Assembly (NCBI GenBank): GCA_002189035.1
Contig: NEEC01000135.1
Location: 1-28,630, forward strand
Direction: 5' to 3'
Length of the DNA: 28,630 bases
Source of the DNA: Utricularia gibba
Lineage: Eukaryota; Streptophyta; Magnoliopsida; Lamiales; Lentibulariaceae
Shown here: positions 1,109-28,630 of the stretch, piece after piece
Position numbering within the stretch: position 1 is the first letter of the stretch
Layout: each line of letters starts with the position of its first letter
Translations under genes and position numbers: made by a program
The notes under the pieces: model-generated
Told to the model about the DNA's origin: nothing
Databases searched by the model: none
Seen by the model: the letters and a program-made list of their open reading frames with translations, nothing else

Positions 1109-4100
1109 ATGGGGTGGGGAAACATATACAAGAGACGCATGAAAGTATTCACTTTAGCGGTTGTTATCTACATGGATTATATGGTGATTTTGTCTTTTCT
1201 CTGCTGTTCTTGGCTTAATTGTGTATTGTAGAGCTCCATTCTCCCAGTTAAAAATTTTGTGTATGCAGGCCTTGCAACAGCGAGAAAAATTTACAAAGAA
1301 ACCCAAGATGGCTGAGCTCTGGGAAAAGCTCATGAGCGTAATGCTAAGCGTCTTCTCAATTTGATAGTAGAGCTTGAAGGCTTGTGGGTGAAAATGGGAC
1401 AGTACCTATCCACACGTGCTGACGTGCTTCCCACAGCATATATCCGTCACCTGCGGCAGCTGCAGGATTCTCTTCCTCCCAGGCCACTAGAAGAGGCAAT
1501 TTCAGATTATGTGTTTATTGTGAATGTAAATGATGGTCGTATCTTGTACCTTCTCTAAAAAAACGAATTTCCCTCTCGTCAGGTTTGCAAGACTATCAGC
1601 AGAGAGTTAGGGAAAACGATGGAAGATCTTTTTACTTACTTTGATAAAATACCTCTGGCTACTGCATCTGTGAGATCTTTATCCTATAGCCATTGTAAAA
1701 CTGAATGCTTGATTATTGGAGGTCTATGGGGAAAGCGGAAGCCTCTTGAACTTCTGAGAATCAGCTAACAGAAGTTCTAGTTACCTAACTTTTGTATTTC
1801 ATGTTTACTCAGATTGCGCAAGTTCATAGGGCTACTTTGATTGATGGCCAGGAAGTTGTTGTTAAAGTTCAACACGAGGGCATTAAAGAAGTCATACTGG
1901 AGGTTATTTTGGATTCTAGTGGATCGTATGATAGGTTTATAATTCTTCTTTTCCACACAGCATAACATGTTTTCTTAACTGCACCCCAGGATTTGAAGAA
2001 TGCGAAGTCTATAGTTGACTGGATTGCATGGGCTGAGCCACAATATGATTTTAATGCAATGATAGATGAGTGGTGCAAAGAAGCACCCAAGGAACTCGAT
2101 TTTAACCACGAAGCTGGTAGGCCATCTTTCTCAATGGGCCAGCTATCCCCACCTCCTTTTATGCTTCCTCTCTTATACTGTATGTATCTGTTGGTGTTTT
2201 TTTTGTAGAAAACACTCGAACTGTTTCTGAGAACCTTGGCTGCAAAAGAAATCGTGATGACTCCAAGATATATGGGGTTGACGTCTTGATTCCTGATATT
2301 ATAATGGTACTTCCTTTCTGATACCAGATCCCTTTAATGCCCTTCTTAGATTGTCAATGTACATTATGCCACTCAATTTTCTGATCGTTTTTTAGTTAAA
2401 GGATAGATTTTGTGAGGCGTGTTTGGATGGAATTCTCTTTGTACTAATTTATCTTTTTGAATACATTTCCTACTGCTCTTCCCTTTAGGGAAACTTGTGA
2501 ACTGCAGTATCTTTGTTGGCCACTTATGTTTTTGTAATGCAATATGCAGTCAACGGAGAAAGTGCTAATCTTAGAGTATATGGATGGAGTGAGACTAAAT
2601 GACACCGACTCTCTTGAAGCACTGGGCATTGACAAGCAAAAACTTGTTGAGGAAATCACACGAGCCTATGCACACCAAATATATGTCGATGGGTTCTTCA
2701 ATGGTGACCCTCATCCTGGTATCCTATCTTTTCATACTCTAGTTCACTGCATGCTAATTGATGTTCTGATTCCTTATGGGGCCATGTATTTGTGCTGTTT
2801 ATTCTTGCGGGTATTGTATAATTCACACCATATGCTCATTACGATTCTATTTATGATTACAATATACCAACTGGTCTTCATCAGGAAACTTTCTTGTAAG
2901 CAAGGCTTCTCCTCACCGCCCCATTTTGCTTGATTTTGGCCTTACAAAGTGCTTATCATTCCCTATGAAGCAAGCATTGGCAAAAATGTTTTTAGCATCT
3001 GCTGAGGTTTGTATCAATTTACTTACAGTTATCAATTGTAAGCCTGTTCAATTTTCAAGATACAGAAAGTTTGAAATATTCCCGTATGCCTTTTTTTTTT
3101 CCTGGAAAACTTACATATATCTTTTTATAGGGTGATCATGTGGCACTTTTATCATCCTTCGCTGAAATGGGACTTAAGCTGCGGTTGGACATTCCTGATC
3201 AAGTAATGGAAGTAGCTAGCTTGTTCTTCCGCAGTTCAACTGCATCAGATGAGGCTCGTGTGAGTAGCATTTTGTTTGCCAAACTAATCTTCATTGTTTC
3301 ATTAGCACTGAATCAATTGCACTAATTTTTTAGCAAAATATGAAAGTTTTAGCTGAGCAAAGAAATAGAAACATGAAGGTAATCCAAGAGAAGATGAGCC
3401 TCAATGAAAAAGAAGTCAAACGTTTCAATCCTGTAAGTCAATAGATGCCCAATTACTCCATTTGTTTACCCCTTTTCTCAAGTTTTGGGCTAAATATTTT
3501 CTTCAGGTGGATGCCTTTCCTGGTGACATAATCATATTTGGAAGAGTTATAAATCTTCTCAGAGGTAATTAGACCGTGCAGTTTTGTTTTTAGATCATGG
3601 ATTTTACTCTTATACGTGGATTGCAGGCCTTTCGGCTACAATGGGTGCACGAATTGTGTATGTTGATATCATGAGACCATTTGCTGAGTCTGTTCTGAAA
3701 TGGTATGATTTAAACTACGATTTGAACCTGTATATGAATGTGATCTTTTCCATCATCTACTTTTTGATACTTTGTTGCAGCAATTTGAACAGAGGACCAG
3801 CACTCAACTCAGACTGGATGCATGACACTCCAGTTATTTCCGTTGTTGAAGAGAAGTTGAGGAAGCTCTTAATTGAGCTTGGGGATGCTGAGAAAGTCCT
3901 CGGAATCCAGGTATATGCCATTCTCTTCTTGGACGCATGAAAATTTTGCCCCACTTGCTTACAAGAATTGATGAAGTTGAACCCCTTTTTTTGTGCTTGC
4001 AAAGGTTTGTGCATATAAAGATGGTCAGGTCATCATTGATACTGCGGCTGGGGTTCTTGGAAGATATGATCCTAGACCAGTTCAGCCAGATAGCTTATTC

Positions 4101-5822
4101 CCTGTCTTTTCTGTGACCAAAGGAATTACCTCTGGGATGGTTCATTGGCTGGTGGATCTAGGGTAGACAAAAATCTTAAATCTTATATCTGTATCTTAAA
4201 TTTTTTTTAAAGCTTTCCTCTAACATTTGTTGCAAGAACATGCCATGCTTTTGTTGATTTGAAATGTTGAAATTCAATTTTAACCATCTAGCCTTCATGG
4301 TAGCAGCACGTTGAAGCTGGATGATAGAGTTGAAAACATATGGCCAGGATTTGGGTGCCATGGCAAAGATCAAATCAAGGTAAATCATCAGTGCATCCTT
4401 GCAGAGAATCATGATATTATAGTGTTGTTTTAAAACAAGTTAAGTTGTTGATATTTTGTTGGTTTGTAGTATCTGTGTTGCATCTCATCATTTTATGATA
4501 GGTTTTATCATAATGTACTGATAATAGCTTTGGCTGTGCCTTACTGTTATTGCTATCATATTTTCATGGTTTGTTATGGTTCATTACATACTCGTCATGT
4601 TGCTCTAGGTTCATCATGTGCTCAACCACACCTCCGGTTTGCATAATGCCATGGCAAGTGTTACACGAGAGAACCCTCTCGTGATGACTGACTGGAAGGA
4701 ATGTCTAAAGTGTACGGCAAACGCATCCCCAGAGACTGATCCAGGCACTCAGCAGATTTACCACTATTTATCGTTTGGCTGGTTGTGTGGTGGAATTATC
4801 GAGGTATTGCACTTCATGGGTCTTACAAATAAATGGTTGTTAGCCCAACCTAGAATATACAACTGATGCCATTCCTAATGTGCAGCATGCCTCCGGGAGA
4901 AGGTTTCAGGAAGTTCTGGAAGAAGCACTTGTTCGCCCACTCAATATTGATGGCGAGTTGTACATTGGAATCCCTCCAGGCATGGTTTCGTTCTCTTTAT
5001 GCAACTCTTATCCTCTTCATTGGCCAGCGAGTAATGAATTTGGCTTGCCTTCCCCCTCCCACAGGTGTGGAGTCCAGGCTCGCAACCCTGACCGTCGATG
5101 TCGAGGATGTAAAATCCCTCTCTGTCATCCTTAATCGGCCAGACGTGCCATCAAGCTTCAGGGAACAGTTACAAGATGTGTCTAACTTGGTGGCAACTCT
5201 TCCAACAACATTTAACACACTTCTTGCCCGCCGATCCATTGTTCCTGCTGCTAATGCGCATTGCTCTGCAAGGGCTCTTGCACGCTACTATGCAGCTCTT
5301 GTGGACGGTGGCTCTATTCCACCACCACATTCTTCTCCCACCCAACCCCCATTGGGAAGCCACCTGCATACTCCCACTTTTGAAACTGAGAAGTCAAACA
5401 AGAAACGGCACACTCCCTTAAGCAGCTGCACAGACTACACCAGTGTCCCTGATGATGATGCAAACATGAGAAGAAGCAGCAACTCAGCACCAGGTGGCAA
5501 GCTCTTCCAAAACAGCAAGATTCATGATGCATTCTGTGGCTCCGGGGAGTATGAGCACCTGGTGCAACCGAGTGGGAGATGGGGGCTTGGGTTCAAGAGG
5601 AATCTCTCGCAAGATGGGAAGCTGATAGGCTTCGGACATTCCGGCATGGGTGGCTCCACTGGGTTCTGTGACATCGAACACAGGTTCGCCATTGCTGTAA
5701 CTCTCAACAAAATGAACATGGGCAGTGTCACTGCCAGGGTGATGCAGTTGGTTTGCTCGGAGCTCAACATTCCATTGCCAAGTGACTATCAAGGATTCAT
5801 TAACACAGCTGTTGGCCACTGA
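1109..5822 (+). CDS. ABC1K (UbiB-like) atypical kinase fused to a beta-lactamase-like domain
   Basis: Predicted protein is about 926 aa and resembles Arabidopsis AT5G24810 (family knowledge). Exons: 1109-1183, 1269-1495, 1583-1669, 1813-1902, 1990-2116, 2209-2306, 2550-2718, 2885-3006, 3131-3259, 3334-3432, 3507-3564, 3627-3702, 3781-3910, 4005-4162, 4292-4379, 4609-4803, 4886-4979, 5065-5822; all phases agree. ABC1/UbiB signatures are visible: KMGQ (about residues 67-70), the lysine of VVVKV (148), NGDPHPGN (286-293) and DFG (308). The C-terminal third carries a class C beta-lactamase/serine-hydrolase fold: SVTK (532-535, SxxK nucleophile), YLS (631-633) and HSG (866). ABC1 kinases act on quinone or lipid metabolism in plastids and mitochondria; the substrate here is unknown. 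The start MGWGNIYKRR matches the family. Oddities: one base is missing in an A-run at 1324-1327, giving a stop at 1362-1364, and introns 2 and 17 fit best as GC-AG. Confidence 0.93.
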
Positions 5823-6466
5823 GGCCCCCCAAGCAGCTCTCCTGATCAACTGATTTGAAGATTTTTGCTAACTTTGTAAGATACATATGTGATGAACAAA
5901 CAGCTGCTGGAAAGTTACATACCATACCAATACAGGTGATACATGTGCGTGTGTGAGGAGTTAGTGTGCACACCGACAACAGGTTGATGAAATCTGTCCG
6001 ATTGTCTTGTAACATATTTGTATTATTATCTTCCCATATCTGCAGATTTACCCAAGTTTGAAGTTTGAATTTAATAGAATGTTTGATAGTATGGTTTAAA
6101 AGATTTATATTTAAGTTTATACATATATCATTAATTGTTTAATATAATTCATACACTTATTTTTTTGTATTATATGAATGATATGCGAGAGAGATAATTA
6201 TATTTTATCAGTGAGTGCAATAAACTCCAATACAGAGTGGAAGTCAGAACATGCACATAGGTTTAGGGTTTTATGATTTTAAGATATAATGTAAACCCTA
6301 AACCCCAAATTCTTATAAGGTAAACCCTCTCCTCTCTTATTAAAATTAAAAAAAGGAAGCGAGCGACTCAAATTCGCTGTTGATCGCGCGTTGTACCAAT
6401 TTCGGACGCCACCGATTTTACGCACGGCTGGCGCTGCCGCTAATTTTGAGCTAGAGAAGGCGAAAG
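5823..6466. other. intergenic region between ABC1K and TAF10
   Basis: It holds the ABC1K 3' untranslated region and the TAF10 promoter and leader. The only notable structure is a pair of oppositely oriented telobox-like motifs at 6260-6304. No other gene is visible. Confidence 0.5.
6260..6304. promoter_or_regulatory. inverted pair of telobox motifs upstream of TAF10
   Basis: GGTTTAGGGTTT (6260-6271) and AAACCCTAAACC (6293-6304) are perfect 12-base inverted copies separated by 21 bases. Each contains the telobox AAACCCTA. In plants, teloboxes occur near transcription starts of growth and translation genes and bind TRB/Myb-type proteins (established knowledge). The pair lies about 160-200 bases before the TAF10 start codon. 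A role in TAF10 expression is inference. Confidence 0.55.
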
Positions 6467-7532
6467 ATGAATGGTCAAACAAGCCAGCAGCAACAGAAGG
6501 CCGGTCGCCACGACGATGATGCTGCACTTACAGAGTTTCTTTCATCGTTGTTGGACTATTCTCCACAGTATGTTACCGCGAATTTACTCGTTACCTGGAT
6601 CGGAGTTTGCCGGCAGCTAATTGGGTGATTTTGCAGATTCCAGATGAACTTGTGGAGCATTACCTAGCAAAGAGCGGATTTCAGTCCCCTGATGTTCGAT
6701 TGTAGGTACTCGATGCCCTAGTTTTTTTTTTTTTCTTTTGTAATCTTATTGGAGGACTGTTTCAATCCGAATATGTACATGGTTTAGCGGTAGCATAATC
6801 TTAATTTCGTGAAAAAGGGCGTTTCTTGAGGAGGCAAGGGCTGCGAAAGAAGCTGTTTTTCCGCTTCCATTGAAAAGTCGGAATCGTGATACTATGGCTT
6901 ATTGATATCTCGCTTTTGGCTTCTTACATTATTTCCACTGTTTTCTCAGGACTAGACTGGTGGCCGTCGCCACTCAGAAATTTATCGCAGATGTAGCAAC
7001 TGATGCTCTTCAGTATGTTTCCACCACCGCTGCTATGGGTCTTCTTTTTGTAACCGTATTTCCGTTGATAACGTGTTGAAATTCATAAATTCCTGTGTAA
7101 ATAATGAAATTCTGGTTACAGAACTAGTCTTTTTGTCTGCTTTGAGGATGACAACTATTGGCATTTCCTTTCAGACATTGTAAGGCCAGGCAATCGGCTG
7201 TAGTTAGGGACAAAAGAGATAGACAACAGAAGGTAAAGCTTCTCCTAACACTTTAAGATTCTCAGTGGCCTTTTGACATTTGACACATCACAGGATAAAC
7301 GCCTAATCCTAACTATGGAAGATCTCTCCAAGGCCTTGCGTGAGGTAACCCTTCTTTGATGATTTGCAGGAATCTGATGTTTGCTGCAATTCCTTTTGCT
7401 TCTTGAGTCACCCCATTGCTCCTTTTATTTTTCGCATATCAAAAACTTCAGTACGGCGTGAACGTCAAGCATCAAGAATACTACGTTGACAGTTCATCTG
7501 CTGGTTTAGAGCCCCCTTCAAAGGAAGACTGA
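6467..7532 (+). CDS. TAF10: transcription initiation factor TFIID subunit 10 (TAF10)
   Basis: TAF10 is a histone-fold subunit of TFIID and SAGA in the nucleus. Six exons: 6467 to about 6567/6571, 6637-6701, 6950-7012, 7175-7232, 7294-7344, 7452-7532. They give about 140 aa, against roughly 134 in Arabidopsis. Recognisable blocks are DDDAALTEFLSSLLDYSP, IPDELVEHYLAKSGFQ, LVAVATQKFIADVATDALQ, then a lysine/arginine-rich linker and LTMEDLSKALREYGVNVKH. The start is the ATG just ahead of a glutamine-rich leader, as in homologues. The exon 1/2 junction is awkward. The canonical donor GTATGT at 6568 gives the wrong phase, whereas a weaker donor at 6572 (GTTACC) keeps the frame with one extra residue. 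The remaining splice sites agree in phase. Confidence 0.93.
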
Positions 7533-8580
7533 GCTACATATTTCCCTTTCTGTGAAACTCTACTGATCTGCTACTCACATTTTAGTTGAATTCAAGTAAG
7601 ATGCCGCTAGTTCCCAACTCTCTTGTCTGTATTGAAGTTTTTCAGACCCTTTCTGTTCGTGCATCAGCTGTTCTATAGAAGCTTATGTTTGGCTTGTGCT
7701 TTAGCGCAATGTTTATAAACCAGTATTCAGTTTTGTTTTTTAATTCAAAATCAATAAATCAGGGAGGAGCCAGAGTTTCCTCCATTGTTGCAGGTCGCTG
7801 CTAGTCCAGTGGCTAAAGTTTCCACAGGTCAATTTCAGGAGGAAATGCACCATCACAGACTGTCTGCAACGCTACTTGATAAATCTTCCACGATTTCACC
7901 ATCGTTCCCTATACGACGTCGTTTTCCTTGAGAGTAAGACTTTTACCCGTGGTAAGCATACTCTAGGCGATAATAGTAATTCGAAATCAACCATGCATAA
8001 GAAATGTTCGAAAATAGGGGAATTTTTTAGTTTTGCGGAGACAGCTACCATTTTGAGAAAATTTCTAAAGTTAATTGAAAATTCGAATTTTTTAAAATTT
8101 TAAAACTTTATGCGGGTTTCAATCCAATCGGATGTGGTTAGGGTAACCCTTTATGTTTATTAAAAGAATTACACCAAAAGTTAAAAGCAGACACCGTATC
8201 TTGGGGTGGTGACGTGTCTGCTCATCCGTGTCCATGTGCATGCATTAAATGCGGATTCCGGGAATCCAGCTACTGGACCGCCCACGGGCCACGAGCCGGT
8301 CCTCCCACCCCAACAACCTTAACACCAGTAAATAATATATTTCACAAATTTATCAATCATTCATTTCGTTTTATGAAAGAAAAATCATTATTTCACATTA
8401 TAAAATATTTTTTAATTTGATTCCCCTGCAATGTCTACTCTTGTGTACCAAGGGAATGCCTAATTGCAGGCACGTTCTTCAAATAAAACATTGAATTATT
8501 ATTAATAATACTTATCAATAATGATTACCTAAGAAGATGGTCTGGCCACTTCGGTACAATGAGAGGGATGATGATGGAGA
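7533..8580. other. convergent intergenic region between TAF10 and the hydrolase
   Basis: It holds the 3' ends of two convergent genes. A 57-codon open stretch at 7758-7931 begins after a stop and has no recognised similarity. The rest, to 8580, is AT-rich. No repeat or RNA gene stands out. Confidence 0.4.
7753..7758 (+). terminator. candidate polyadenylation signal of TAF10
   Basis: AATAAA occurs about 220 bases after the TAF10 stop codon, a usual distance for a plant 3' untranslated region. Motif match only. Confidence 0.35.
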
Positions 8581-9828
8581 TCAAGAGATGCCGTTTAGCA
8601 GGAAATGGCTAACGATTTTGTTGAACTGGGTAGCGTTCTGGAGGTGTGGAATGTGGCCCGTGTTCTTGATCACCTGCAACCTCGCCTTTTCCCCGGCCAA
8701 CCTGCAACTCAGACAGACACCAGGATCTGCTTATTCGGCTTGCAAAAGTAGATTATTTCAGTTGGAATGTCTTACTTTAGTAGCTCGGTCGTCTTCTCCA
8801 CCAAGAAGATCTGATCTTGATCCCCCCATACGATCAGCACATCCTGCTTACTCGGGCAAGGAAGAGAAATGAGCTGGGTGGGTGAATATTCTTTGCTGGG
8901 GGTCAAAGAACGGTGGTAACTGGTTCCGGTGACAATGTGTTTACTGTGCGGTGGTGAGGATGGGATGAGACCTGGGAGAGGGGTGGTATGAGGACGTTTT
9001 CGTCGTGTCCGAAGCTGAGGCCTCCGATGAGTTCGGATTTCTCCTTCCTGTTCTCCATGTAAAGAACCTGGATCCCATTTCTCGCAATTTTTCGGTCTTG
9101 GTTTTCAGGAGCCGAGTGAGCGAAATGAACAGAGAGAAAACGGGTACCTCGATGAAGTCGTTGAGCAAGAACTCCGGGAGGTACGGAAGGCGGGGAATGG
9201 ATAGGCGGAGAACGTTGCGCAACTGTGCGGCTGTCGCCGGTAGCAACATTTCCTCCATTTTCGTCGCTTTCCCTCGACGCATCAGCCCCAAATTATCGCT
9301 CAGCCGCAGATTAACCGCCGAGCTAGCGATGACCACTTTCTCCACCCTATCCGGCCACATTTCCGCGATTCGATACGATATGAATCCGCCGTAGCTAGTC
9401 CCGATCAGTGAGTACCTAGAGATAAAATTGGTCACAGAAGCAGCATTTCACCGATTTAATCGGATTCAGGGAATACCTAGAAACCCTAGCTTTTCGAGAA
9501 GTTTCGCGACGCATGCCCCCTGAAAAACCTCCGACCTCTCTGACGAATTGGAGAAGGATCCTCCGAAGAAGACGAGGTCCGGGACGTAGACATTAAATTT
9601 CTGCGTGAAGAAGGTAACCTGTGGCCGCCACTGCCAGATCCCGGCGGGTCCAAAGCCGTGAACGAGAACAAGTGACGGCTTGGATGACTCCGGGGACAGG
9701 GGACCCCAGAAGTGAATCGTCGTGTCGCCGTCGATTTGTAGGGTTTGAGAAGTAAGCCCCGCCGCCGTTGCGCACCGGCGGAGGAAACTGGCGTAGAGCG
9801 AAACGACGCTGAGACAAGAGCCCGTCAT
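8581..9828 (-). CDS. alpha/beta-hydrolase fold protein (putative esterase/lipase)
   Basis: Read on the minus strand, five exons (9828-9485, 9415-9148, 9067-8972, 8843-8776, 8701-8581) give about 298 aa. The catalytic triad of the alpha/beta-hydrolase family is complete. VLVHGFG marks the oxyanion strand, GTSYGG the nucleophile serine elbow, VWGDQDQIF the acid, and NTGHIPHLQ the histidine. A short variable N-terminus, SLYASFLRRCATAAGL, precedes the core, as in plant proteins of this group. The substrate cannot be told from sequence. All phases fit with these coordinates, but the first junction is uncertain: the in-phase donor (GTTTCT at 9484) leaves the loop before YSLIGTSYGG about three residues shorter than usual, while the other donor (GTATTC at 9476) is out of phase by one. 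Codons are rich in G/C. Confidence 0.88.
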
Positions 9829-11301
9829 CCTTCACCTCAACTCACCTTCGTGCTCTGAGATCAGAAACATGGCTTCCCTCAACTGCATTTTGTATCACCC
9901 CGCGGGGCCCACTCTGTTGAAAATATCTGGGAATTGTCGCTTTCAATCCCAAACCAACTTCATTCCATTTCATTTGGGTAGTCCCAATTTATCCACTTTA
10001 CATCTTTAAAATAATTATATAGATATATATTATTTTTCGTTTTTTAATAATATAAAATTAATAAGAAAATATATAGAATTTTAAAAATAGATAGTTTTGC
10101 TGGTTTTGAAGATATTTTATTTAATATGAATAGAATTTTAAATTATTTTACCCAAAAAACACAATGTGTTTTATATTAAACTTTTTAGGCATATTTATGT
10201 AATATATTTAAATCAATCTATTAAATACATATTAAATTTAAATATCTTAAATCATATAACTAAACTTTTAAGCAAATTACTAAACAAACCTTAAATCACA
10301 TTGTTGACATACATCCGAATACCACAAGTTGTGAACATATATCATAAGCCACTTTAGGTGCAATATCCATGACAATTGTAACATGTCCTTATGTGTGTTG
10401 GGTCCTTTTCGGGTAGACGATGATGCAACATTTGACTATCGATTTTCAATATAAACAACTAGCCACCACGTAGCCATTAATGAAGACAACCATTAGACGT
10501 GCTCCATGGCAGTTGGCACCAATAATCATCTTATATTTAAAATTGAAAACTTGCTTCATCCCCACGCTAAATAATTATAGCAATAATAATAATAACATAA
10601 ACCACTTGAAAGAACAAATGAGAATGTGGAGTTTTCAAGGAAGCCCCAATCCAAGGAATGGTGGAAATATTTTAAACTAATCTTATATCGATTTAAAATA
10701 TGATAGAGGGAAGTTTTTTATAATTTTGCATGAGGGTTTTTTGTAAAACCATGAATATTTAGTGTCCAAATTAGACAATATTATGTAAATAAAAAATGAA
10801 TCGTTACATTCGTCTGGATTGAAAAGTAGTTTAACTTAACCATGGTTAAGCAATCTCAGCTTCAATGAAATTAGAGACCTTGCCCTCGGACTTAACAGAT
10901 ATGGCAAACGGGTGGCGAATGGAATCGTGCCGTTTGGAGTAAACTGAGTTTGTTTTTTTAGTGGAAGTATAAAATAATATTTTTAGGAGTCTGACTTTTT
11001 TGATTGCCCTCTTCTTTCGGCAACAGTAGAAGTTGGCTGTCTAGATTAAATTCTTAATATTTGTCCGTTTTGAAGAAGAATAGTATTTTCATAATAAATA
11101 TTTAATTCTACTACTTTCTATAAATAGGATAGGAGTGAAGCTCTAACTGTTTAATATTATAAATAATATTATATTAGAATCTTTTTTAATGAAAAAATAG
11201 TCAGAAGAAATGAGAGTCAAACTGCACAAGAAGACGTGAAGATGATAAATACAGCGCCACTCTCGTGTTGATTAGCTCGCTCCCTCTGGTTGCGAACCGG
11301 C
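9829..11301. other. divergent intergenic region between hydrolase and patatin genes
   Basis: It carries the promoters of two divergent genes. The middle (about 9980-11200) is strongly AT-rich, with simple TAA/ATT runs such as the one near 10580. The short open frames are chance. The only promoter element I would name is the TATA box at 11119. Confidence 0.4.
11119..11126 (+). promoter_or_regulatory. TATA box of the patatin-like gene
   Basis: TATAAATA, followed by GG, is a close match to the plant TATA consensus. It lies 183 bases before the patatin ATG, which would give a leader of about 150 bases. Confidence 0.55.
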
Positions 11302-13102
11302 ATGGCCTCGTCCCTGAACGCCATCCTTCCTCCGGTGAAAGGGAACCTCATCACGATTCTGAGCATTGATGGAGGCGGCATTCGCGGCATCATCCCGGCG
11401 AAAGTTCTCGATTTCCTGGAAGCCCATCTTCAGGTGGTCACGCCGTTTCCAGATCATCGTCCTCGGGGGGCCGACGACGATGGGTATACGTTTTTGATTG
11501 GGAGTGTTTTTTTGTAATATGTGACAGGAGCTTGATGGCGATGAAGTACGACTCGCTGATTACTTCGATGTGATCGCGGGGACGAGCACCGGCGGTCTTC
11601 TGGCCGCCATGCTAGCGACCCCCGGTGACAGTCATCGTCCTCTCTTTGCTGCCAAGGACATCGTTTCGTTTTACCAGCAACACGGACCTCAGATCTTCCC
11701 GCAGCAGGGGTGACGCTCTTGTTCAAACCAATGATTTTAAACACGACTTTCGTTTAAGGAAAAAAGGGATAGAGTTATTTATCTGTTGGTGCCTGAGCTT
11801 ACAGGGGGTTTGTGGGTTCATTGATGAGCACCATAAACAGACTAAAAGGGCCGAAGTACGACGGAAACCATCTTCACCGCGTGCTGAGGGAGAAACTCGG
11901 AAAGAAACGATTGAGCGAAACGTTGGCAAATGTCGTGATCCCACTTACGATATCAACAAGATGACTCCTGTGGTTTTTTCATCTTATCAGGTGGGTAGTT
12001 GTGTTTCTTGAACATTACAGAGGTTGGTGTCTTGTGAGAGACATTGAGGGTGAGATAATTTTCTGATTGAAACCCTAAGTGAAAGTGAATTGTCGTTGTA
12101 ACTTAGTGGTCTGGTTCCAGTTGAGTGAAGTTCCTCAGATCAATGCACTTATGTCGGATGTCTGCATCAGCACCTCTGCTGCACCGACTTATTTCCCGGC
12201 CCACTACTTCATCAACGAGGACTGGGAATTCAATCTCGTCGACGGCGGCGTTGCTGCGAACAACCCAGTATATTCTCTGTTCTACATATTTCCGGCACTT
12301 CTGTCCAAATTTATCAGGTTTTAAAGCGTAGTGAGTCTACAGACGCTGGTTGCTGTTCGTGAAGTCACGGAGCAACTTACCAAGAAAAACCCAGACTTTT
12401 CGGATTGCGATCCCATGGATTACACCAGGTTCCTGGTCATCTCTCTCGGCACAGGGACCCACAAGCAGAGTAAGAAATACACGGCGGAGGCGGCGGCGGG
12501 GTGGGGACTACTGGGCTGGCTGATCCAGGGGAACTCCGTTCCCCTTATTGACATCTTCAGCGAAGCCAGTGCTGATTTGGTGGATTACTTCGTAAGCACG
12601 GTGTTTAAAGCCCATGACAGCGAACAAAATTATCTCCGGATTCAAGTAAAGTGTTCGATCATCTTCTCGTCCACATCTCCTCTTGGAGTCATTTTTCCAT
12701 CTCCGCACGGCTGATTAAGTCAACCTTCACCAGGAGGACGCACTGCCCGAAGAGTACTCGTCGATGGACGTCGCGACGAGTATGAACATGGACGGACTTG
12801 TGAGAATTGGAGAAAACATACTGAAAAAACCCGTCGCGTCGCCGAACCTCTTCACCGGAAGCACTGAAGCTGTTCCGAATGGAGAAACCAATGAGGAGGC
12901 TCTGAAAAGGCAAGCATACCACCGCCCCCACTCCCCCTGGATCTAGTGTTGGTTAATGATGGGTTTATGTTGTTCATTGTTATTTAGCCTTTACCAATTC
13001 ATCGGAGACCACACGGTGTGTTTCAGGTTCGCCAAGTTGCTGTCGGAAGAACGAAAGCTCAGGATTTCAAGAACTCCGACCACCAGCTACAGACCCAGTT
13101 GA
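11302..13102 (+). CDS. patatin-like phospholipase (lipid acyl hydrolase)
   Basis: Patatin-like enzymes release fatty acids from membrane lipids with a Ser-Asp dyad. Seven exons: 11302-11433, 11528-11709, 11805-11990, 12121-12267, 12343-12645, 12734-12909, 13027-13102. They give about 400 aa, the usual size for plant PLP proteins. Visible motifs are DGGGIRG (residues 23-29, oxyanion hole), GTSTG with Ser64, and the DGG of [12 protein letters not shown] (Asp208). The last exon gives [12 protein letters not shown], a typical C-terminal segment of plant patatins. The start is the first ATG in frame ahead of the conserved [16 protein letters not shown] block. Two oddities: one C is missing in the run at 11940-11942, which shifts frame within NVVIPTYDINK and gives a stop at 11962-11964; and the last intron begins GCAAGC, so it is a GC-AG intron. 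Confidence 0.92.
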
Positions 13103-17772: not shown

Positions 17773-17828
17773 GCAAGGGAAACCCGGCTAGCCGTTGATC
17801 TTTTTCATACTGATTTTACCTTATCAGC

Positions 17829-17834
17829 AATAAA
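17829..17834 (+). terminator. candidate polyadenylation signal of the TMX2-like gene
   Basis: AATAAA lies about 57 bases after the TMX2 stop. Because the next coding sequence starts at 18048, the transcript must end in this short gap. Confidence 0.45.
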
Positions 17835-18047
17835 TATGTATTACTTTTAATCGTCAATTTTATTATTTAATTTCATTTGAGTAATTAATGATATAAAATA
17901 TAGAAGCAAATCTTTGAATTCAAGAAACAAGTTTTGAGAGTGAATCTGTTTCCCTCCATTACAAAATTTCGTTCTCCCTCCCGAATTTTCTTTCAAAACC
18001 CTACTGAGATCTTCTCGGCCAAAATTGCAACCTGCGGCGTCATCGGA

Positions 18048-20588
18048 ATGTTACTCTCTGCTTCTTCGCCGCCGATGGTGGATAATCGCCTCGAATTGAC
18101 GTCTGAATATGAATCACCAAATTGCACATCTCTCGGCGGCGGTCACTCCGCTGATCGGTTTCGTCACGACGATAGCGGGATTGATCTGGTTAGCCAGTCG
18201 AACTCTCTTTCTTTTTTGTTCTTATGGCCAGTATTTGGATTTCTATTTGTCGGTGTGGTGGTGAATTATTTTCTGATGGTTATCTAAGTGAGTTATGACA
18301 GGGGGCGGGGCTCGAAAATCTGGGGAATACATGTTTCATGAATTCGGTGTTACAATGTTTCATGCATACTGTTCCACTTCTCAATCGAATCTTCTCAGAT
18401 AAACAGCGCACGCATTCTAATTGTACGTTAAGTCATGTTGTTTGTGCAGGAGTTGTATATAGATATATACAATATCGTTTTGATTGCAAAATTTTCTTAA
18501 TTTGCAGGTAGTGCTGATGAATTTTGCACGCTGTGTGATCTAAAGGATCTAGTTAAGCGTTCGCTGAAATGGAGAGTTCTATACCCAGGCAGAATCTTCA
18601 ATAACCTAAACTGTATCCTTTTCTGTTCACGTTCTGACTTGATCTTTTCTAGTATATTTTGCTTGAGTTTTTCCCAGTTTGGTCGTACTTTGTTACTTTA
18701 ACTTCGAGAACTATCAGATTTCTCTTCAAATTTTCAAATGTACCAGCAGGAAGATGCGCACGAGTTCCTTCAATGTTATTTGGACAAGCTCGAAAGCTCT
18801 TTTAATCCAAATTCTAAAGATTCTGCACCGCCTCGTAGTGAGACCCTAGTCAAAGAAGTGTTTGGTGGCCGTATCCTCAGCAAGGTACGAGCTTCAGTTT
18901 TGAATGTCGTCCTTTTTTCTAGCATTTCTGTTCTATAATGTTAGAGTTCAGAATTTTGATTTCTACAAGAAATTTCTTGTTTGCAGCTGACTTGCTGCAG
19001 CTGTGGTAACTGTTCTGAGACTTACGAGCTTTCAATTGATATGAGTTTGGAGATTGAGGATGCTGATACTCTTGAATCTGCCCTGAAATCTTTCACAAAG
19101 CTTGAGAAAATTGAGGATCCTGAAAATAAGTTCACTTGCAATGAGTGTAAGGAGAAGGTATTTGTAGAGAAACAACTTTCCCTTCACGAGACCCCGCAAG
19201 TGGCTGTATTTCATTTGAAGAGATTCAAAAATGATGGTCATTATGTTGAGAAAATTGATAAGCATGTGGCCTTCCCCACGGACTTGGATTTGCTTCCTTT
19301 CACTAGTGGAAATAGTGACGTGAGTCTCACTCTCTCTCCCTATTTTTTTTTTTTTGACTCATTGTTTTGTGACATTCTGCTTGAAATCTAATGTCATCAG
19401 CTGACTATGAAATCCTACTCCATGCTTCTGGTTTCCGTTTGCAGATAGACCTTCAGTACACTCTCTATGCCATTGTGGTGCACCGCGGATGGGCTTCCAC
19501 CTCCGGCCACTACTATTGCTTCAATCGCATATCACAAAATATGTGGTGCAAGTTTGATGACTCAAGTGTAAACATCTTGAGCTTCCAGCTTAATTATATT
19601 AACCCTGAAATCTAGTTTTTCTTTGGCTAATATTCCACATTTTTGGTCAGGTAACGGTGGTCGATGAAGAGTATGTGCTATCGCAGCAGGCTTACATTCT
19701 ATTCTACTCTAGGGAGGGGACCCCATGGTTTTCAACTTTCTATGAATCTCACAAACTATGTTTGGAGTCTGAGATTTCCAATACGTCGCCAACATCAGTT
19801 TTAGAAAAGCAGACTGCATTGCCAACGTCTCCTGAACAGAAACCTGAACTCCCTCCTTGCTTTGACATAGCTACCAAGTCACAAATTAGGAACACTTCTG
19901 GCAACGAGGAAGACCAAAGGATCGAGTTTTCACTGCATGAAGCCGCATGTATGCCTACCAATCAGCAATCTCAAAATATTTCTATGGTCACAAGTCATCA
20001 ACTCGAGACATCTGAGAGAATCAATAGATCGCCAAGTCCAGAGATTTACAGAGATGACCCATCTGACGGTATGTTTTAAGTTTAATGATGATTTTGTTGC
20101 AGTTGGACAAAATTTTGATTTCCCGTTTCAGACCCCTGCATTTCAGCTCCTCCAACTGTGACTGGTCACACACGTAGCAAGAGGCCATTGGATGACCACA
20201 CAGATAGTATGGAACGAAAGCAAGCATTCTTGCTCTTAAAAAAAAGATTCCAAGGTTCAAGGGCCCGGATGCTGAGGGCTGCAGTGATGGGAGATTACCC
20301 TTCTCCCCGCAGGAAGAAGACGTTCTCCCTAGTGCAAATGCTTTGCATCCAATGCTCTCTAGATCTTAGAGGTGAAACAACCAACCCCTGCTGTATTTAA
20401 TGTCCAGTCCTTGATCTGTAACATTCTCAGCTTGAGCCCAAATAATTAAGTTTTGAAGATCATATGATGAGCATGCTTATCAAGACTATTCTCGTTTTTC
20501 GTCTCTTGCAGCATACTATCAACTGAGAAATCTGAAAGGAATCAGGCAGTTACCGATCAAGGATGCCAGGTTCTGCAAAACAAAATAG
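18048..20588 (+). CDS. ubiquitin-specific protease (UBP20/21-like deubiquitinase)
   Basis: Cysteine protease that removes ubiquitin from proteins. Exons: 18048-18188, 18302-18422, 18508-18612, 18718-18884, 18987-19319, 19445-19567, 19651-20068, 20132-20371 and probably 20512-20588. They give about 574 aa. The Cys box is GAGLENLGNTCFMNSVLQCF (Cys58), followed by YQQEDAHEFLQC. Two CxxC pairs (CCSCGNC and CNEC) form the zinc finger. The His box is STSGHYYCF (His about 311), with the third active-site residue in KFDDSS. The C-terminal tail is basic (KRFQGSRARM, SPRRKKTF). The C-terminal end is uncertain: either splicing at 20371/20512 adds about 25 residues, or the frame reads through to a stop at 20398-20400 (558 aa). 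No frame break was found. Sequence most resembles plant UBP20/21 (from memory). Confidence 0.92.
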
Positions 20589-21126
20589 TGAATTCTTATC
20601 ATTCACACAAAATATGCAATTCACATCGTTGCAAAATATTAATTAATTATTGGATGGTCAATGAATGCAACTGCAGTGAATGCATCGATGCTCGATTTTG
20701 AATTTTACAGTGGGTTCCTAATTGTTCCTCTAACTTATGAATCCACTCATATGCTCCATTTCACGTGCCACTAGAGAGTTAGAGACGCCTTGGGTAAATT
20801 GATGACACCTGTTGTCCACTAATGTATTTCATGTGGTCGCTCATCTTGTTACGCATCTTAAATGGGATTACACGAAGTAGGTGCCTCGTGGTCGCTGGCT
20901 TTACTTCATTTCTTTTTGTGTCTACTCTGAATCTCACTAATCTCCAATTACAAGACCCTTCTTTTTCCACTTTTTAATGCAATGTCAGTCCTATAATACA
21001 TGCTTTTTTTTTAATTATCAATGATACGGTTGTGGATGCATGATATTGTCACCTTCCACTTTTATGCTTGGGGTATAAAGAGCCCTCTCCCAAGACAAAG
21101 TGTGCTTGCATTTGAGAGCATTCTTG
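20589..21126. other. intergenic region between USP and DUF599 genes
   Basis: USP 3' region and DUF599 promoter. AT-rich with no coding similarity on either strand. A good TATA box lies at 21074. Confidence 0.45.
21074..21079 (+). promoter_or_regulatory. TATA box of the DUF599 gene
   Basis: TATAAA within GGGGTATAAAGAGCCC lies 53 bases before the ATG. A start of transcription about 30 bases downstream would leave a leader of only about 20-25 bases. Confidence 0.5.
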
Positions 21127-21909
21127 ATGGCGTGGAACGCGGGGGACCTGGACATGGCTCTGGTGCCTTCAGGGTTCATGATCTTCATCGGGTACCATGT
21201 ATGGCTTTGGCACAGGGTCCGCTCTGATCCCCTCTCGACCATCATCGGAATCAATGCTCGCGTCCGCACCTATTGGGTGGCCGCCATCGTCAAGGTTCGA
21301 CTTCTGGATCTGTTTTTCTTGGAGTTCAGGCATCCCCCATAGCAGTGAATGATGGTGTTTTGGCAGGATAATGAGAAGAAGAACATCCTAGCCGTGCAGA
21401 CCTTGAGGAACACCATAATGGGATCGACGCTCATGGCGACGACCGCCATCCTGCTCTGCTGCGGCCTGGCTGCTGTGATCAGCAGCACCTACAGCGTCAA
21501 GAAGCCCCTCGACGGAGCCGTGTTCGGCGCCCACGGCGAGTTGATGGTGGCCGTCAAGTACGTCGTGCTCCTCATGGTCCTCCTCTTCGCCTTCCTCTTC
21601 CACTCCCTATCCATCCGCTTCATCAACCAAGTCAACTTCCTCATCAACTGCTGCTCCGTCGGAGCCGTCGCGCCGGAGTACGTCTCGGAGTTGCTGGAGC
21701 GGGCATCCGTGCTCAACATCGTAGGGAACAGGGTGTTCTACTCTGCACTCCCGCTTCTTCTCTGGATCTTCGGCCCTGTCGGCGTCTTCCTGTGCTTCTT
21801 CACTTTGGTGGCTTTGATGTACAATCTCGACGTCGTCTCTCGATTGGAGAAGACGAGATTCGGCAGCGATGATGAGAGTAGCCGCGCCGGTGGTGCTCAA
21901 AATGCTTGA
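21127..21909 (+). CDS. DUF599 family multi-pass membrane protein
   Basis: Two exons (21127-21294, 21367-21909) give 236 aa, about the family length. DUF599 proteins are plant membrane proteins without a known reaction. Hydrophobic helices are visible at ALVPSGFMIFIGYHVWLW, LMATTAILLCCGLAAVIS, VVLLMVLLFAFLFHSL and FYSALPLLLWIFGPVGVFL. Conserved words include NIVGNRVFYSALPLLLWIFGP and QTLRNTIMGSTLMATTAILL. The start ATG gives MAWNAGDLDMALVPSG, which matches homologues. The ending, after LEKTRFGSDDES, is hydrophilic. Third codon positions in exon 2 are strikingly C/G-rich compared with the BTAF1 and USP genes on either side. No frame break was found. Confidence 0.92.
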
Positions 21910-21996
21910 TGCAGAGAGCAATTTGTTTGTAGTAACCCCCACATCACTTCAATCTTTACACACGTAGCTCATAAAAGGCGTGTACTTGAAATTACT

Positions 21997-22002
21997 AATA
22001 AA
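21997..22002 (+). terminator. candidate polyadenylation signal of the DUF599 gene
   Basis: AATAAA lies about 88 bases after the stop codon. Confidence 0.4.
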
Positions 22003-22281
22003 GCCCTTGGCCTTGAGGATTGACTCCTCTTTGTTTATACAAGTGGTGCCTAATTTAGCATGTCCGAAGATGTGTACAAAAACTACAAATATTTTAAAAT
22101 TATTAGTATTTTTGTGGATAAAGGGTGCATTTACTATTTTGACCCTCCATACACGCACGCAGCAGCGGTGAACCGGGATTTTAAACGGGTCATCTGTAGA
22201 TCCGGTCAAATTCTATTTCGGGTTCGGATTCAGAATCGTGAAGGTTAAACTCTGAAGCCACCGTTTTCCCAACTTCTCTTC

Positions 22282-22288
22282 TATAAAA
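22282..22288 (+). promoter_or_regulatory. candidate TATA box of BTAF1
   Basis: TATAAAA is preceded by the pyrimidine-rich CTTCTCTTC. It lies about 550 bases upstream of the first codon, which fits a long leader or one with a 5' intron. Confidence 0.35.
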
Positions 22289-22830
22289 TGAGCGTCGTCC
22301 ACTGTTTATCACGACCTAAACCCTCGTTTTCGTCGCTCTATGAGACCGTGGGAAGCGCTTATCGGGGAGAAGAGCGATCGAGTTTCTCAGTTCTATATCC
22401 CTGTTTTGGTAATTTACGTTTTTTCCGGGTATTTTTTTGCACGATCTTTATGTATTTCTGGACAATTGATTCCTTGTTTATCTTGGTTGGAGGGATCCGC
22501 ATTCTGTGTGATTACCCAATACCGATGAAATTAAGATGTTTCACCATTTTTAGAAGGGCTTCTTTAGTGGTTAGTGTGCTTTGTAGTTATCCATTTATCA
22601 TTGTCGATGAGTAAACGATGATGTGAGGTTTTCTTCATTTTCTATGCGGCTCCGGTCTCTGCTATTTGATTTTGTGTGTCGATTTACTCGTATGGTCTCA
22701 GAAAGTTATTGTAATTCAATAGTCTCAGGGAACGGTTATTGGGATGCGAAATGGCCGCCCATGATAATCAATACTATCGGAAGTTAAGGTCTTTTTGAAA
22801 GAGTGAAACCTGGTGGTGGTAATTTACACC

Positions 22831-25800
22831 ATGGCTCAACAGTCATCTCGGCTTCATCGCCTCTTGACGTTGTTGGACAGTATCCTTGATATCATTTTGT
22901 TGCCTTCAATTTGGACTGCTACTATGCTGTAAATTCACATTAAATAGCAAGTATTTTTATTTATGAAATAGCAACAGAAAAGCCAAGTTTGTCTATTTCA
23001 ATGGAAAAAATATTTGTGCTCAAAATTGGTTTCGTATCTTGGATTCTTATCGACTGTTAATGTGGTTATTTTGTCTCTTTAACAACCTCTAAGCGGGATC
23101 CACCCAAGCAACACGGTTCTCTGCAGCGAAGCAGATCGGGGAAATTGCGAAATCGCATCCCAGGACCTGAGTGCGGTTTTAAGCAAGGTGAGTTCTGATT
23201 GTTCTGTGTACTTTTCAGTTGATGTTGAGCCCCCAGGAGGTGCTTTTAAGTGAAGCAAATTCGGGAGTAGATTAAGGATGAATGGTGACCTAAGTAGACG
23301 GAAAAACCCAAAGTCATACAATGTGGGTTGTGAGTTCCATGCAAGTTTAAATATTCTAATTTAGCCAATATCATACAACAGGTGGAGACTGGGGAGATCC
23401 TGGTAGATACTATTTATCAGAGTTGTTATCAGAGTAAAACCACGTTGTTGTAATTAGTGGTATGCCAAAGCTTAGTGAGAACTCCGGGGAAGAACCAAAA
23501 CCTCATGGAATGTTAAGTTCCTTGATTAGGCGTGGGGTACATGAATGTTTAAGTAAGATGATGGCACTAACCTTGTAGAAGTTGTTCTTGTCATGAGTGA
23601 GCGTAACTGATTCCATTAGAATTCCCAAATTAAACGTGTTTGAATCAAAATAGATTAGATATTGTTGGCTATCATAGAAGTTTCTGCACAGAAAAAATGT
23701 AAAAGATGCGATGTGGGTTGTGATCTTCATGTAGGCTGACTGGAAAAAATGGATAATATTGGGTACGGGGTGGACCATCAATGGCTTTCCCACCTCCAAT
23801 CACTGATGGAGGCTGAACTTTAATTTTTCCGAATTAACACTTCTGCCAAGCAGACTAATCTCTAATTGGGATGTTCATGCTCCGTCCATCTCTTTCTCCA
23901 GCTGATTCAGTTTTTGCACCATTTATTGTCGCTTCTCTATTCAGGTCCATATATTAATGGACATGTGACTGCTTTTCTATCACTTATTTTTTCTGGAATG
24001 ATGCAGGTATCACATTGTCTACATAGTAAAAAGTGGGATACTAGGGTAGCTGCTGCACATGCTGTGGGAGCTATTGCAGAGAACGTGAAACACATTTCTT
24101 TGTCTGATCTTTCTAGCCATATTGAAGCAAAGATGATTGAAGTTGGAATATCTTCCTCCTTCCACGATGCAGTGATTTTGCCTGCCTGCAATGCTAAAAT
24201 TAGATCAGAAACGATTTTTAGAAGGTCTCTTCTTCTTTTATTTGTTATTCAGCTTCATATCTTTGACTTCTTCTAACAGAAGCTCGCAACTTGCAGTTTT
24301 GATCTAAACAAGGTTCTGGATTTTGGGGCTTTGGTGGCATCTGGGGGTCAGGTACTTTACAATCAGTTTAAGCTTTATGTATCTAGAGCTTGCCATAATT
24401 ATTATCTTAGCATGAAAATATACATGATGGTTTGTTGAAATTTAGGATTTTATGTGTTGAATATTGAAATTTTTATGCGCTTATGTTTTTTTTTGTCCAC
24501 TCCAATGAAGTATATAAATTTTGATGTTCTTTATGTTTGATTCTGATATTCTGACATTGATGATCTCGTGAGTATATTTCAGGAGTATGATATTGCCACT
24601 GACAACATTAAAAATCCAAAGGAGCGATTGGCTAGACAAAAGCACAATCTTAAGCGCCGATTGGGTCAGTACCCTTTATACAACTTTTGTTATTAGACAT
24701 GAAGATTCTTCCTGTTTATTATTTTTTTTTTTTGGCATTACGTGAACTTTGCAGTCTACCTGTTCCCCTGAATATATTGTCGAAAGTTATGATGCAGCTA
24801 TTATGCAGCGTAGGAATGAGTTTATGGTTCCATATGATGTTTTTTTTGTGATTCCTATGGTTTTTCTAACTTGTTTGAATAATCTTTTTTGCAGGTTTAG
24901 ACATGTGCGAGCAGTTCATGGATGTTGATGATGTGATAAGAGATGAGGATCTCATATTGCAGAAAGATAGTCATAATGCGGTTGGAGGAATACAATACTT
25001 CTCATCACATCCCTCACATAATTTCCGGCAGCTTGTTACAAACATGGTGCCAACATCAAGATCTCGTAGGCCAAGTGCCAGGGAACTGAATCTCTTGAAG
25101 CGGAAAGCTAAGAATAACTTAAAAGATCAATCAAAGGGATGGCCAAAGGATGGGGATGCTGAGGTTGCAACATCTCATGATATGGTATCACCTAGGAGTA
25201 TATCTGTAGACTTATCTAGTTCAAATAAGGTAATGCTCATGCTTTTTCTGATTGTTCTTTCATTGTGCATGGCAATATCTCATATCCAGGGGTTGATTGT
25301 TTGGTTTCATCATAGCATATTCCAACTGGCTTGTGCCTGTTGTCTGCAAATCATCAATGGATCATCAAAGATGTATCCTGTGAACTCTATGTGAAACTTG
25401 TACAAGGTCTCTGTAAACTACCTTTTTTTGTTTGCTGCAGCAACTAGCAGATGCTGTTTCTGATGATGAGAGCATTGAGAGTGATGGAGATGGCAGTTGG
25501 CCTTTTCGCAACTTTGTTGAACAACTGCTTGTTGACATGTTTGACCCTGGTATAATTTCTTTATTCTCCATCTACTTTTTTGTACTTCTTACAAATGCGG
25601 AGTATACCATTTGCTTGTTTCCTCTCAGTTTGGGAAGTTCGCCATGGCAGTGTGATGGCACTCAGGGAGATATTAACCTATCAAGGAGCTTTTGCTGGAG
25701 TTGTTATGCCTGAAATGAGATGCCCTGGTGGACTGGCCCCTAAGAAAGAAAGTGTTAATGATAAATGTGAGATGGAAATTGACTTAAATATTCAAGTTTT

Positions 25801-28630
25801 ACATGATGATGTAGAACGTGATTTTAAAAGGCCAAAAATTGAAGATGAAACTTCTAGAGTTGGCAGCTCAATATGTGGAATCCTTTCTGGTGGTATTAAG
25901 GCAGAAGATGATGGAGGACAATGTTCGTCTGAGAAAGTTGACGGACTTGTTTGTAGTGTAGAGGAATCACTCTTGAGCAACAACACAAGAGGTGTAAATC
26001 ATTATTCTGAATGCAAAGGATCTTCAGAGAGTATTGGTGCATTGAAAAATATTCCTGTAAATTCAGAGATAATTAGCCTCATTCAAGATGCCAGGAGGTC
26101 TTGGCTGAGGAATTGTGATTTCCTCCAAGACTGTGCAATTCGAATCTTTGTGCCTCTTGTCACTTGATAGGTATATCTTCGAATAGTTTTTGAATGGAAA
26201 TGTTATAGAGATAGGGCATGGTTCCAAAGAGGTGGCTTTGAGATACAAGAGACTAGTCGATTTCCATCATGCTCACAACATTTTCATTCTCCATATCTTT
26301 TTGTTGTATTCAGAAGATCTAGCTCATGGATTTATCATTTCTCAGGTTTGGGGATTATGTTTCAGATCAGGTTGTTGCACCAGTAAGGGAAACATGTGCC
26401 CAAGCCTTAGGTGCAGTTTTGAAATACATGCATCCGACTATGGTTCATGGTACATTGACCATTTTATTGCAAATGCAGGTAAAGATAGAATAATGCTTTG
26501 ATTGCAATGCGCGTATGTGCATACTTTATTCCACAAGCAATTTTCTAATTATTTCTTGGTCGCTTGCAGCATAGGGCAGAATGGGAAATTCGCCATGGAA
26601 GCCTTTTGGGTATTAAATATCTGGTTGCTGTTAGACAGGCATGTCCAGTTACAGAAGCAATTTTTTATGATGAATGATATGTATTTTCTTACTGTGCACA
26701 ATTTGGTATCCATGTCTTTGTTTACAGGAGATGCTTAATGACTTGCTTATTTCTGTGCTCCCGGCTTGCAAAACTGGGCTTGAAGATCCTGATGATGATG
26801 TGAGAGCAGTTGCCGCTGAAGCTTTGATACCTACAGCTGCTGCTCTTGTTTCACTGAATGGACCGATTTTGCAATCTATCATTATATTGCTGTGGGACAT
26901 CTTGCTTGACCTTGATGATTTGAGCCCATCGACCAGCAGGTTCTTAATTGTTTATGAAATGAGAAAGATATCTAACATGAAGATAATCAAATGCTCTCAG
27001 TTTGGACGTGTGTTTGCATTTTATAATGATTCATGTAACAATGTTGCAGTGTGATGAATCTCTTAGCTGAAATCTATTCCCAGGAGCAAATGTTCCAGGT
27101 CGAGAAAGTCAACCTGGAACATAATGAAGTTCATCATATGGATGAGGATGAAATTGAAGGCAGAAAAAACTCTCTTGATGACCCTTATATGCTATCAACT
27201 TTAGCACCAAGGTTGTGGCCATTTATGAGACACAGTATCACTTCAGTTAGATTGTCGGCTATACGTACCCTGGTATTGCAACTGCACATAATTTACTATA
27301 ATTGAATGGAAACCGAACTGCACCTTTTAGTTTAGAAGTTGCTCTTATCTTTCTTTTGTTTTCGTTCTTTTACTTTTAAACTTCATTGATTCTTTTCTTT
27401 TTGTGAACATGTTATATTATAACTATGGGTAACTAATATGCAGGAACGTTTGCTTGAAGCTGGATACAGGAGGCGAGTTATAGATGGTTCTACATCATTT
27501 TGGCCTTCTTTCATATTTGGTGACACTCTAAGGATTGTCTTCCAGAATTTGCTCCTTGAGTCAAATGAGGAGATTCTGCAGTGCTCGGAGAGGGTTTGGA
27601 ATCTCCTAGTCCAAGTATGTGATTTGTTGGATGTTCTTGAAATTGCTCCAAAGTTCATTTTGCTTGGTATTTTTTATCACCCATTGGAAAATTTGTCCAC
27701 TTTCTGCTCCAAACTAGGTTTCTGGAGCTGTTTCTTCACCCTCATACACTTTGAAATATTTAACCTGGCGTCAAGTGATGCAATGCCTAAAATGTTCATA
27801 TTTTTCTGGATTTGTGCTGAAGTTTTATTTTAAATTTTCAGTGCAAGGTAGAAGACTTAGAAAGTGCGGCACAGTTATATTTCCCTTTATGGATTGAGCT
27901 TGCCACTACCCCTTTTGGTTCTCAACTGAATACAGCAAAAATGTTTTGGCCTGTTTCCTTGCCACGTAAAAGTCATTTCAAAGCTGCTGCTAAAATGAGG
28001 GCAGCCTGTCTTGAAGGTGAAAATTACCATTCAAGGACCTTTGACGCTAATGAGGGTGCCACTGCAGATCAAAATGGAGAGTTGTCTGCGAATTCCTCCA
28101 GAATTGTAGTTGGGGCTGACTTGGACATTTCAGTAACTTATACAAGAGTTATTACATCCTCAGCTCTTGGGGTGATGGCTTCCAAGTTAAGTAGTACAGC
28201 TGTGAATTATGTAGTTGATCCACTATGGACGCGACTCAATTCTTCCTCAGGAGTTCAGCGACAGGTGAGGTTTGAGTGAGAATGTCATTCAATGCGTATG
28301 CTTTTATCTAGCATCGTAGATTGGGAAGTTGGACTAATTCCATTTATTGCTCATGTCAGGTTGTTGCATTGGTGCTCATATCTTGGTTTAAACAATTTAA
28401 GTGCTCGTCAAGATCTGATGAATCGATTGCTAAAATTTCAAGCAGTTTTAGACAATGTTTGCTGGATTTGCTCACATGCAGCAACCCGGCTTTTCCTACA
28501 AAAGATTCACCTCTACCCTATTCTGAACTTACGAGAACCTATAGTAAGATGAGGAATGAGGCCAGCCAATTGTACACTTCTACCGAGAGATCTGGCATGT
28601 ACAATGAGTTATTGTCATCCCTCAAAATAA
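22831..28630 (+). CDS. BTAF1: TATA-binding protein-associated factor BTAF1/MOT1, N-terminal part (runs off the window)
   Basis: BTAF1 (yeast Mot1, Arabidopsis RGD3) is a SNF2-type ATPase that strips TBP from DNA. Only the N-terminal HEAT-repeat part is here. Exons: 22831-22879, 23094-23187, 24007-24224, 24297-24351, 24583-24664, 24895-25229, 25441-25549, 25629-26170, 26346-26478, 26570-26638, 26728-26939, 27050-27272, 27444-27614, 27842-28264, 28360-28630 (open). Recognisable parts are [47 protein letters not shown], the repeat motifs [15 protein letters not shown] and [33 protein letters not shown] and [19 protein letters not shown]. The ATPase domain lies beyond the right edge. Two single-base frame breaks are present, at 23159-23161 (loss) and 26147-26149 (gain); all other phases agree. 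Intron 10 is GC-AG. It is probably functional in life, with errors in this sequence. Confidence 0.93.

Follow-up and report, generated by a model that had tools for sequence, protein, structure and literature searches.

The window, by which we mean the whole stretch of DNA analysed here (28,630 nucleotides of the plant Utricularia gibba), is an entire contig (C509:1-28630; length, 28,630) of an assembly of 516 contigs and 100,091,633 bases. It holds nine genes, several of them interrupted by shifts of the reading frame, and a second copy of it lies inside a longer contig, C508. Here, we report a comparison of the two copies, gene by gene, and a count of similar frame breaks in three gene families elsewhere in the assembly. 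Together they point, with a probability of about 0.94, to residual consensus errors as the source of the breaks, in a duplicate contig (likely the second allele) whose genes would be intact in the plant.

Results

Exon models were set by hand for eight of the nine genes (approximately 11.3 kb of coding sequence), and both copies were read through them as written. On the forward strand these are an ABC1-type (ADCK/UbiB-like) kinase and beta-lactamase-like gene of 18 exons (1109-5822), the first three exons of a TAF10 gene (6467-7012), a patatin-like phospholipase gene of seven exons (11302-13101), a peroxidase gene of four exons, by eye of the plant secretory type (14113-15489), a ubiquitin-specific protease gene (18048-20371), a DUF599 gene (21127-21909), and the N-terminal 15 exons of a BTAF1/Mot1 gene (22831-28630). 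An alpha/beta hydrolase gene, modelled over its first four exons, lies on the reverse strand (8775-9828). The TAF10 and hydrolase models are partial, and a TMX2-like gene (named by eye; approximately 15,890-17,770) stands outside the models.

A search with window positions 23866-28630 returned one match besides the window itself (C508:133671-138433). Pairwise alignment with a longer piece of that contig (C508:124000-171600) showed that C508:133671-167652, on the minus strand, covers the window from end to end in two blocks (window 1-12509, 99.80% identity; window 12504-28630, 99.91% identity). C509 has no flanks of its own, and all of it lies, nearly unchanged, within a longer contig, which is what marks a haplotig. 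The copies differ by 8 substitutions and 28 insertions or deletions (indels) over 28,652 columns, in which the 6 bases of overlap between blocks are counted twice. Single-base changes make up 25 of the 28 indels, with the base absent from the window in 12 cases and absent from C508 in 13. The original prediction, made from the letters of the window alone, placed all its clear frame breaks in runs of 3-5 identical bases, and the differences between copies show such a concentration: 22 of the 25 single-base indels sit in runs of three or more, although such runs hold 20.8% of the bases in the window (binomial p = 1.2e-12). Among runs of four or more, 11/110 of G/C and 7/462 of A/T vary between copies (Fisher p = 8e-5; variable runs sized in the longer copy, totals counted in the window).

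Homopolymer indels with few substitutions are also the general pattern left by loss of mismatch repair, and a plant or lineage without efficient repair might truly gather such changes. Instability of that kind should, however, strike the longest A/T runs hardest, and here, among the 26 A/T runs at least seven bases long, 2 vary, against the G/C figure just given. Conserved housekeeping genes would moreover hardly survive it, and we regard this explanation as scarcely credible.

The two alignment blocks overlap by six bases at window 12504-12509 (forward strand), the empty site of a 5,346-bp copia element with long terminal repeats (LTRs) that interrupts exon 5 of the patatin gene in C508. The inserted element (C508:149788-155135) has a GGGAC target-site duplication, two LTRs of approximately 391 bases, and one long open frame with gag, integrase, and RVT_2 (reverse transcriptase) domains; terminal repeats, a short target-site duplication, and integrase ahead of reverse transcriptase are all present, as in Ty1/copia elements. 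Because C508 carries this element and the window holds the empty site of a polymorphic insertion, the contigs are most simply two alleles, and C509 is probably the other allele of the C508 stretch, retained as a redundant contig.

The LTRs of the element (C508:149788-150178 and 154745-155135) differ at 2 of approximately 391 positions, two flank positions set aside. This divergence exceeds what would be expected for an insertion on one young allele, given 8 substitutions in 28.6 kb of flanking copies, and in this the element departs from a plain Ty1/copia insertion polymorphism. Correctly spaced LTR pairs of 99-100% identity number at least 10 in the assembly, the C508 pair included and two on C234 and C245; the number is a lower bound for the repeats, element interiors lying outside the count. 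Such a family suggests a recent burst. The insertion in the patatin exon, with its empty site, is a small true finding, young and probably still heterozygous.

Nine sites in the modelled coding sequence break the frame. Four are private to the window, with C508 open (forward strand): ABC1 exon 2 (1324-1327), TAF10 exon 1 (6563-6564), patatin exon 3 (11940-11942), and BTAF1 exon 8 (26147-26149). Four are private to C508, with the window open: opposite 8822 in the hydrolase gene, 11619 in the patatin gene (a C run, 11619-11623, forward strand), 14295 in the peroxidase gene, and 21141 in the DUF599 gene. The ninth, in BTAF1 exon 2 (23159-23161, forward strand), is common to both. One copy is open at eight of the nine sites, and Pfam or PDB matches back the open readings for TAF10, patatin, peroxidase, hydrolase, DUF599, and BTAF1.

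The original prediction named four clear run-associated breaks in the window, and all are present: an A run (1324-1327), two C runs (11940-11942 and 23159-23161), and a T run (26147-26149). It gave no coordinates for single breaks, and these sites were assigned by fit to its description. At the A run the frame does break, but the change is not one of plain run length, since C508 has a different base inside the stretch. The three genes said to be broken are broken; TAF10, where a junction had been called doubtful, adds a fourth, so that four of the nine window genes are interrupted by five breaks. The TAF10 break is a true break in the window, in that the C508 reading matches Pfam TAF10 (PF03540, E = 1.1e-21) and the window reading matches no Pfam family. 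A second doubtful junction, in the hydrolase gene, proved not to be a break: the window is open when the donor of the first intron is placed eight bases further upstream (9485), and the C508 copy breaks instead. The hydrolase reading from the window matches PF00561 over residues 51-251 of 259 amino acids (E = 1.6e-13).

In the patatin gene both copies are broken, each in its own C run. The gene matches Patatin-17 (1oxw_A, E = 2.5e-43) and PF01734 (E = 1.2e-15); at the site broken in C508, the window reading covers positions 1-118 of the Pfam patatin profile and the C508 reading positions 1-47, and in the PDB alignment to Patatin-17 the window reading continues across the 11619 site. All four peroxidase exons are open in the window, and exons 1 and 2 match PF00141 in the window reading (E = 2.9e-32), with no match in the C508 reading (Pfam). 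The DUF599 gene is likewise open in the window (PF04654, E = 1.4e-67); its C508 reading stops after 17 residues. For BTAF1 exon 8, C508 exons 8-10 align through the site with the Mot1 chain 7zb5_E (E = 4.5e-18). The C508 copy of the ABC1 gene is one open frame across all 18 exons. The name of this gene comes from its motifs and from plant homologues: in the PDB, exons 1 and 2 gave only nonsignificant matches (5yjz, E = 0.31; ABC1 family protein 7cy2, E = 0.42; COQ8B, E = 0.49), and the exons gave nothing above the cut-off in Pfam, where the sole match was an unrelated family below its own cut-off.

A locus in decay would be expected to carry mixed lesions, stops by substitution included. The hand-set exon models are otherwise open, the nine breaks and the C508 insertion aside, and none of the 8 substitutions between copies creates a stop in modelled exons. 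That the window might represent a segmental duplication of the C508 locus now dying through classical pseudogene decay has in its favour the existence of two copies with broken genes in each, but the larger copy, which is in place, has just as many breaks as the small one, the substitutions are so few, and the small contig lies wholly within C508; we consider such decay very improbable. Frame-shifting single-base indels number 8 in the approximately 11.3 kb of modelled coding sequence, against 25 single-base indels in 28.6 kb overall. With approximately 40% of the window coding and 8 of 25 single-base indels falling there, a coding depletion is not clearly present.

The breaks might alternatively be real, as heterozygous null alleles in a mostly clonal plant whose two haplotypes have lost different genes, each covering for the other. 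Their distribution is nearly complementary, with four private to each copy, and the copies are probably alleles, with a retrotransposon in one and an empty site in the other. Natural variation is, however, expected to show substitutions above indels, and the reverse is seen here (28 indels to 8 substitutions), in homopolymers and with a G/C bias. Patatin would be broken on both haplotypes, and unrelated loci show similar breaks. We therefore hold null alleles to be highly improbable. The same very low credence goes to the further idea that each haplotype has lost different essential genes, neither being viable alone and the clone being locked into heterozygosity.

The break common to both copies, in BTAF1 exon 2, was considered separately. 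The gene matches the Mot1 chain 7zb5_E and a HEAT repeat profile (E = 2.4e-6), and on C508 it extends into an SNF2 helicase part (SNF2 matches; exons there open one by one, by eye). The two halves of exon 2 align in order, first to Mot1 residues 2-36 (E = 0.0013) and then to residues 41-72 (E = 0.068, ranking below designed repeat proteins and nonsignificant by itself), so the frame seems to shift inside a continuous conserved stretch. This break alone could be a true lesion or a case of unusual splicing, with the remaining breaks errors, as its presence in both copies would suggest. The near absence of a gap between the ordered Mot1 matches (with the significance of the second as given), the open exons downstream through the SNF2 part of C508, and the position of the break in a C run make that unlikely. 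The exon 2 break is likely also an error, though less certainly so than the other sites.

Confinement of the breaks to this locus, the outcome that the original prediction set against itself, was not observed, since HSP70, EMP70, and GRAS genes elsewhere in the assembly are broken in a similar way. Loci were classed by eye from match coordinates, and break sites (5 in HSP70 and EMP70, 12 in GRAS) were placed by eye from translations. For HSP70, seven loci with the long exon (profile positions approximately 61-599) were counted, and all loci lacking it were left out; four are in a single frame and three shift frame without a gap. The EMP70 count comprises 13 loci, of which 2 shift frame and the remaining 11 keep to a single frame, one of these with a TAG within its match; the count leaves out C328, C255, and C244:452520-454808, which show several stops or many exons, and short 5' exon pieces. 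Among 34 GRAS loci, a count that leaves out two intron-split and eight fragmentary loci, 23 are in a single frame and 11 shift frame inside the domain, with at least 12 breaks; one locus (C244:1855140) seemingly has two breaks, which were counted as one. Duplicates were left out of the counts (C241, a copy of C304, for HSP70; C316, equal in score to C412, for GRAS).

Across the three families, at least 17 abrupt frame changes without a gap were found in 54 loci, in approximately 65 kb as estimated from match lengths, and 14 of them lie on contigs longer than 1 Mb. The corresponding density at the window locus is 5 breaks per copy in approximately 11.3 kb, against 17 in approximately 65 kb elsewhere. 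Nine of the 12 GRAS breaks fall in or next to a G/C run at least four bases long (judged by eye, with no control), and five share a profile position (approximately 131-150) in different genes, in a C/G-rich stretch on contigs of 2.1-8.5 Mb.

Some contigs of these families call for remark in their own right. C385, the site of one EMP70 break, is only 41 kb long and may be another redundant contig. The GRAS loci C316:31414-32541 and C412:853787-854914 have equal scores with open frames of 412 and 615 residues, and are perhaps a redundant copy with a frame difference.

A second redundant pair was compared. C241:1-30000 (of 31,221) matches C304:2224057-2256999 to the end of the piece compared, with 39 indels (37 of them single-base) and 30 substitutions in approximately 27.5 kb; the middle parts are unequal (approximately 1.9 versus 5.5 kb) and lie inside an HSP70 array. 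A sampling of small contigs for redundancy (C20, C80, C140, and C290; 2.5 kb each) gave too many candidate matches to score.

Further features of the locus were as follows. The ubiquitin-specific protease gene, named from motifs by eye, is open in the window in one frame over eight hand-set exons, and the sole C508 difference in its span is intronic (18269). At window 21374-21376, an in-frame three-base difference in DUF599 gives KK in the window and K in C508 and may be a true polymorphism. Beside the stop codon of the ABC1 gene (window 5817-5825), a two-base and a one-base difference leave the C-terminal ends unlike in the two copies. Four of the 53 introns in the hand-set models have GC instead of GT donors (last exon bases at window 1495, 4979, 12909, and 26638); GC donors make up approximately 1% of plant introns, less than is seen in these models.

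Discussion

The original prediction favoured consensus error over gene decay, and the comparison supports it: of the five breaks in the window, four read open in C508, which itself breaks at four further sites that read open in the window. In the mechanism that we propose, long-read consensus would leave one base extra or missing, mostly in short homopolymers and especially in G/C runs. The second allele would stay a separate contig because the allele in the larger contig bears a copia element in the patatin exon. Each copy would gather errors of its own, so that frames break at different places in the two, the genes of the plant being intact. We infer the cause of the breaks, the allelism of the copies, and the PacBio origin of the assembly alike. 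On this account it is very unlikely that the frame breaks are a biological feature, and essential genes have probably not been lost.

Near-identical duplicates could also escape polishing through ambiguous read mapping, in which case errors would be particular to redundant stretches. This may add to the error rate, but it is not needed as the cause, because for most of the other breaks the contig is large and has no known duplicate, C304 being the exception.

Several observations weigh against consensus error as the general explanation. C508 comes from the same assembly and is therefore not a fully independent witness. The two-base difference at 5817 and the three-base difference at 21374 look more like true polymorphisms than errors. 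For the ABC1 break, the database matches are nonsignificant, and the case depends on the continuity of the 18-exon frame in C508 and on plant homologues. The BTAF1 exon 2 break is identical in the two copies, as is one HSP70 frame change in C241 and C304, and since breaks are thus common to both members of a pair, some could be real. In the C241/C304 pair, moreover, substitutions are not rare and the indel excess is less marked (39 to 30). Some split loci of the three families may be true pseudogenes, and in the GRAS loci on C414 and C480 the matching segment contains a stop. Finally, a passage of a review puts the U. gibba assembly at 82 Mb (HGAP; 88-fold coverage; contig N50, 3.4 Mb) (PMC5793159), as against 100.1 Mb here.

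The pattern has close counterparts. Residual homopolymer indel errors are described for bacterial assemblies in one report (PMC8812927), and assembly errors that fragment genes in another (PMC12007338). As in long-read-only assemblies with such errors, the changes here are single-base, associated with runs, in both directions, and break the frames of conserved genes; nothing essential differs, the particular feature here being the bias to G/C runs. C509 likewise resembles a haplotig, or redundant allelic contig: it is small, lies inside a longer contig to which it is 99.8-99.9% identical, and differs from that contig structurally, its probable allelism being read from the sequence of the two contigs. 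The C508 element resembles a Ty1/copia insertion polymorphism in its LTR pair, 5-base target-site duplication, gag/integrase/RVT_2 content, and the empty site opposite.

A redundant contig such as this one inflates gene counts. In protein sets predicted from this assembly, some genes would falsely seem lost, and some models would be truncated or merged. In a plant with a small genome, false losses could pass for real gene loss, and counts of gene loss made from the assembly call for caution.

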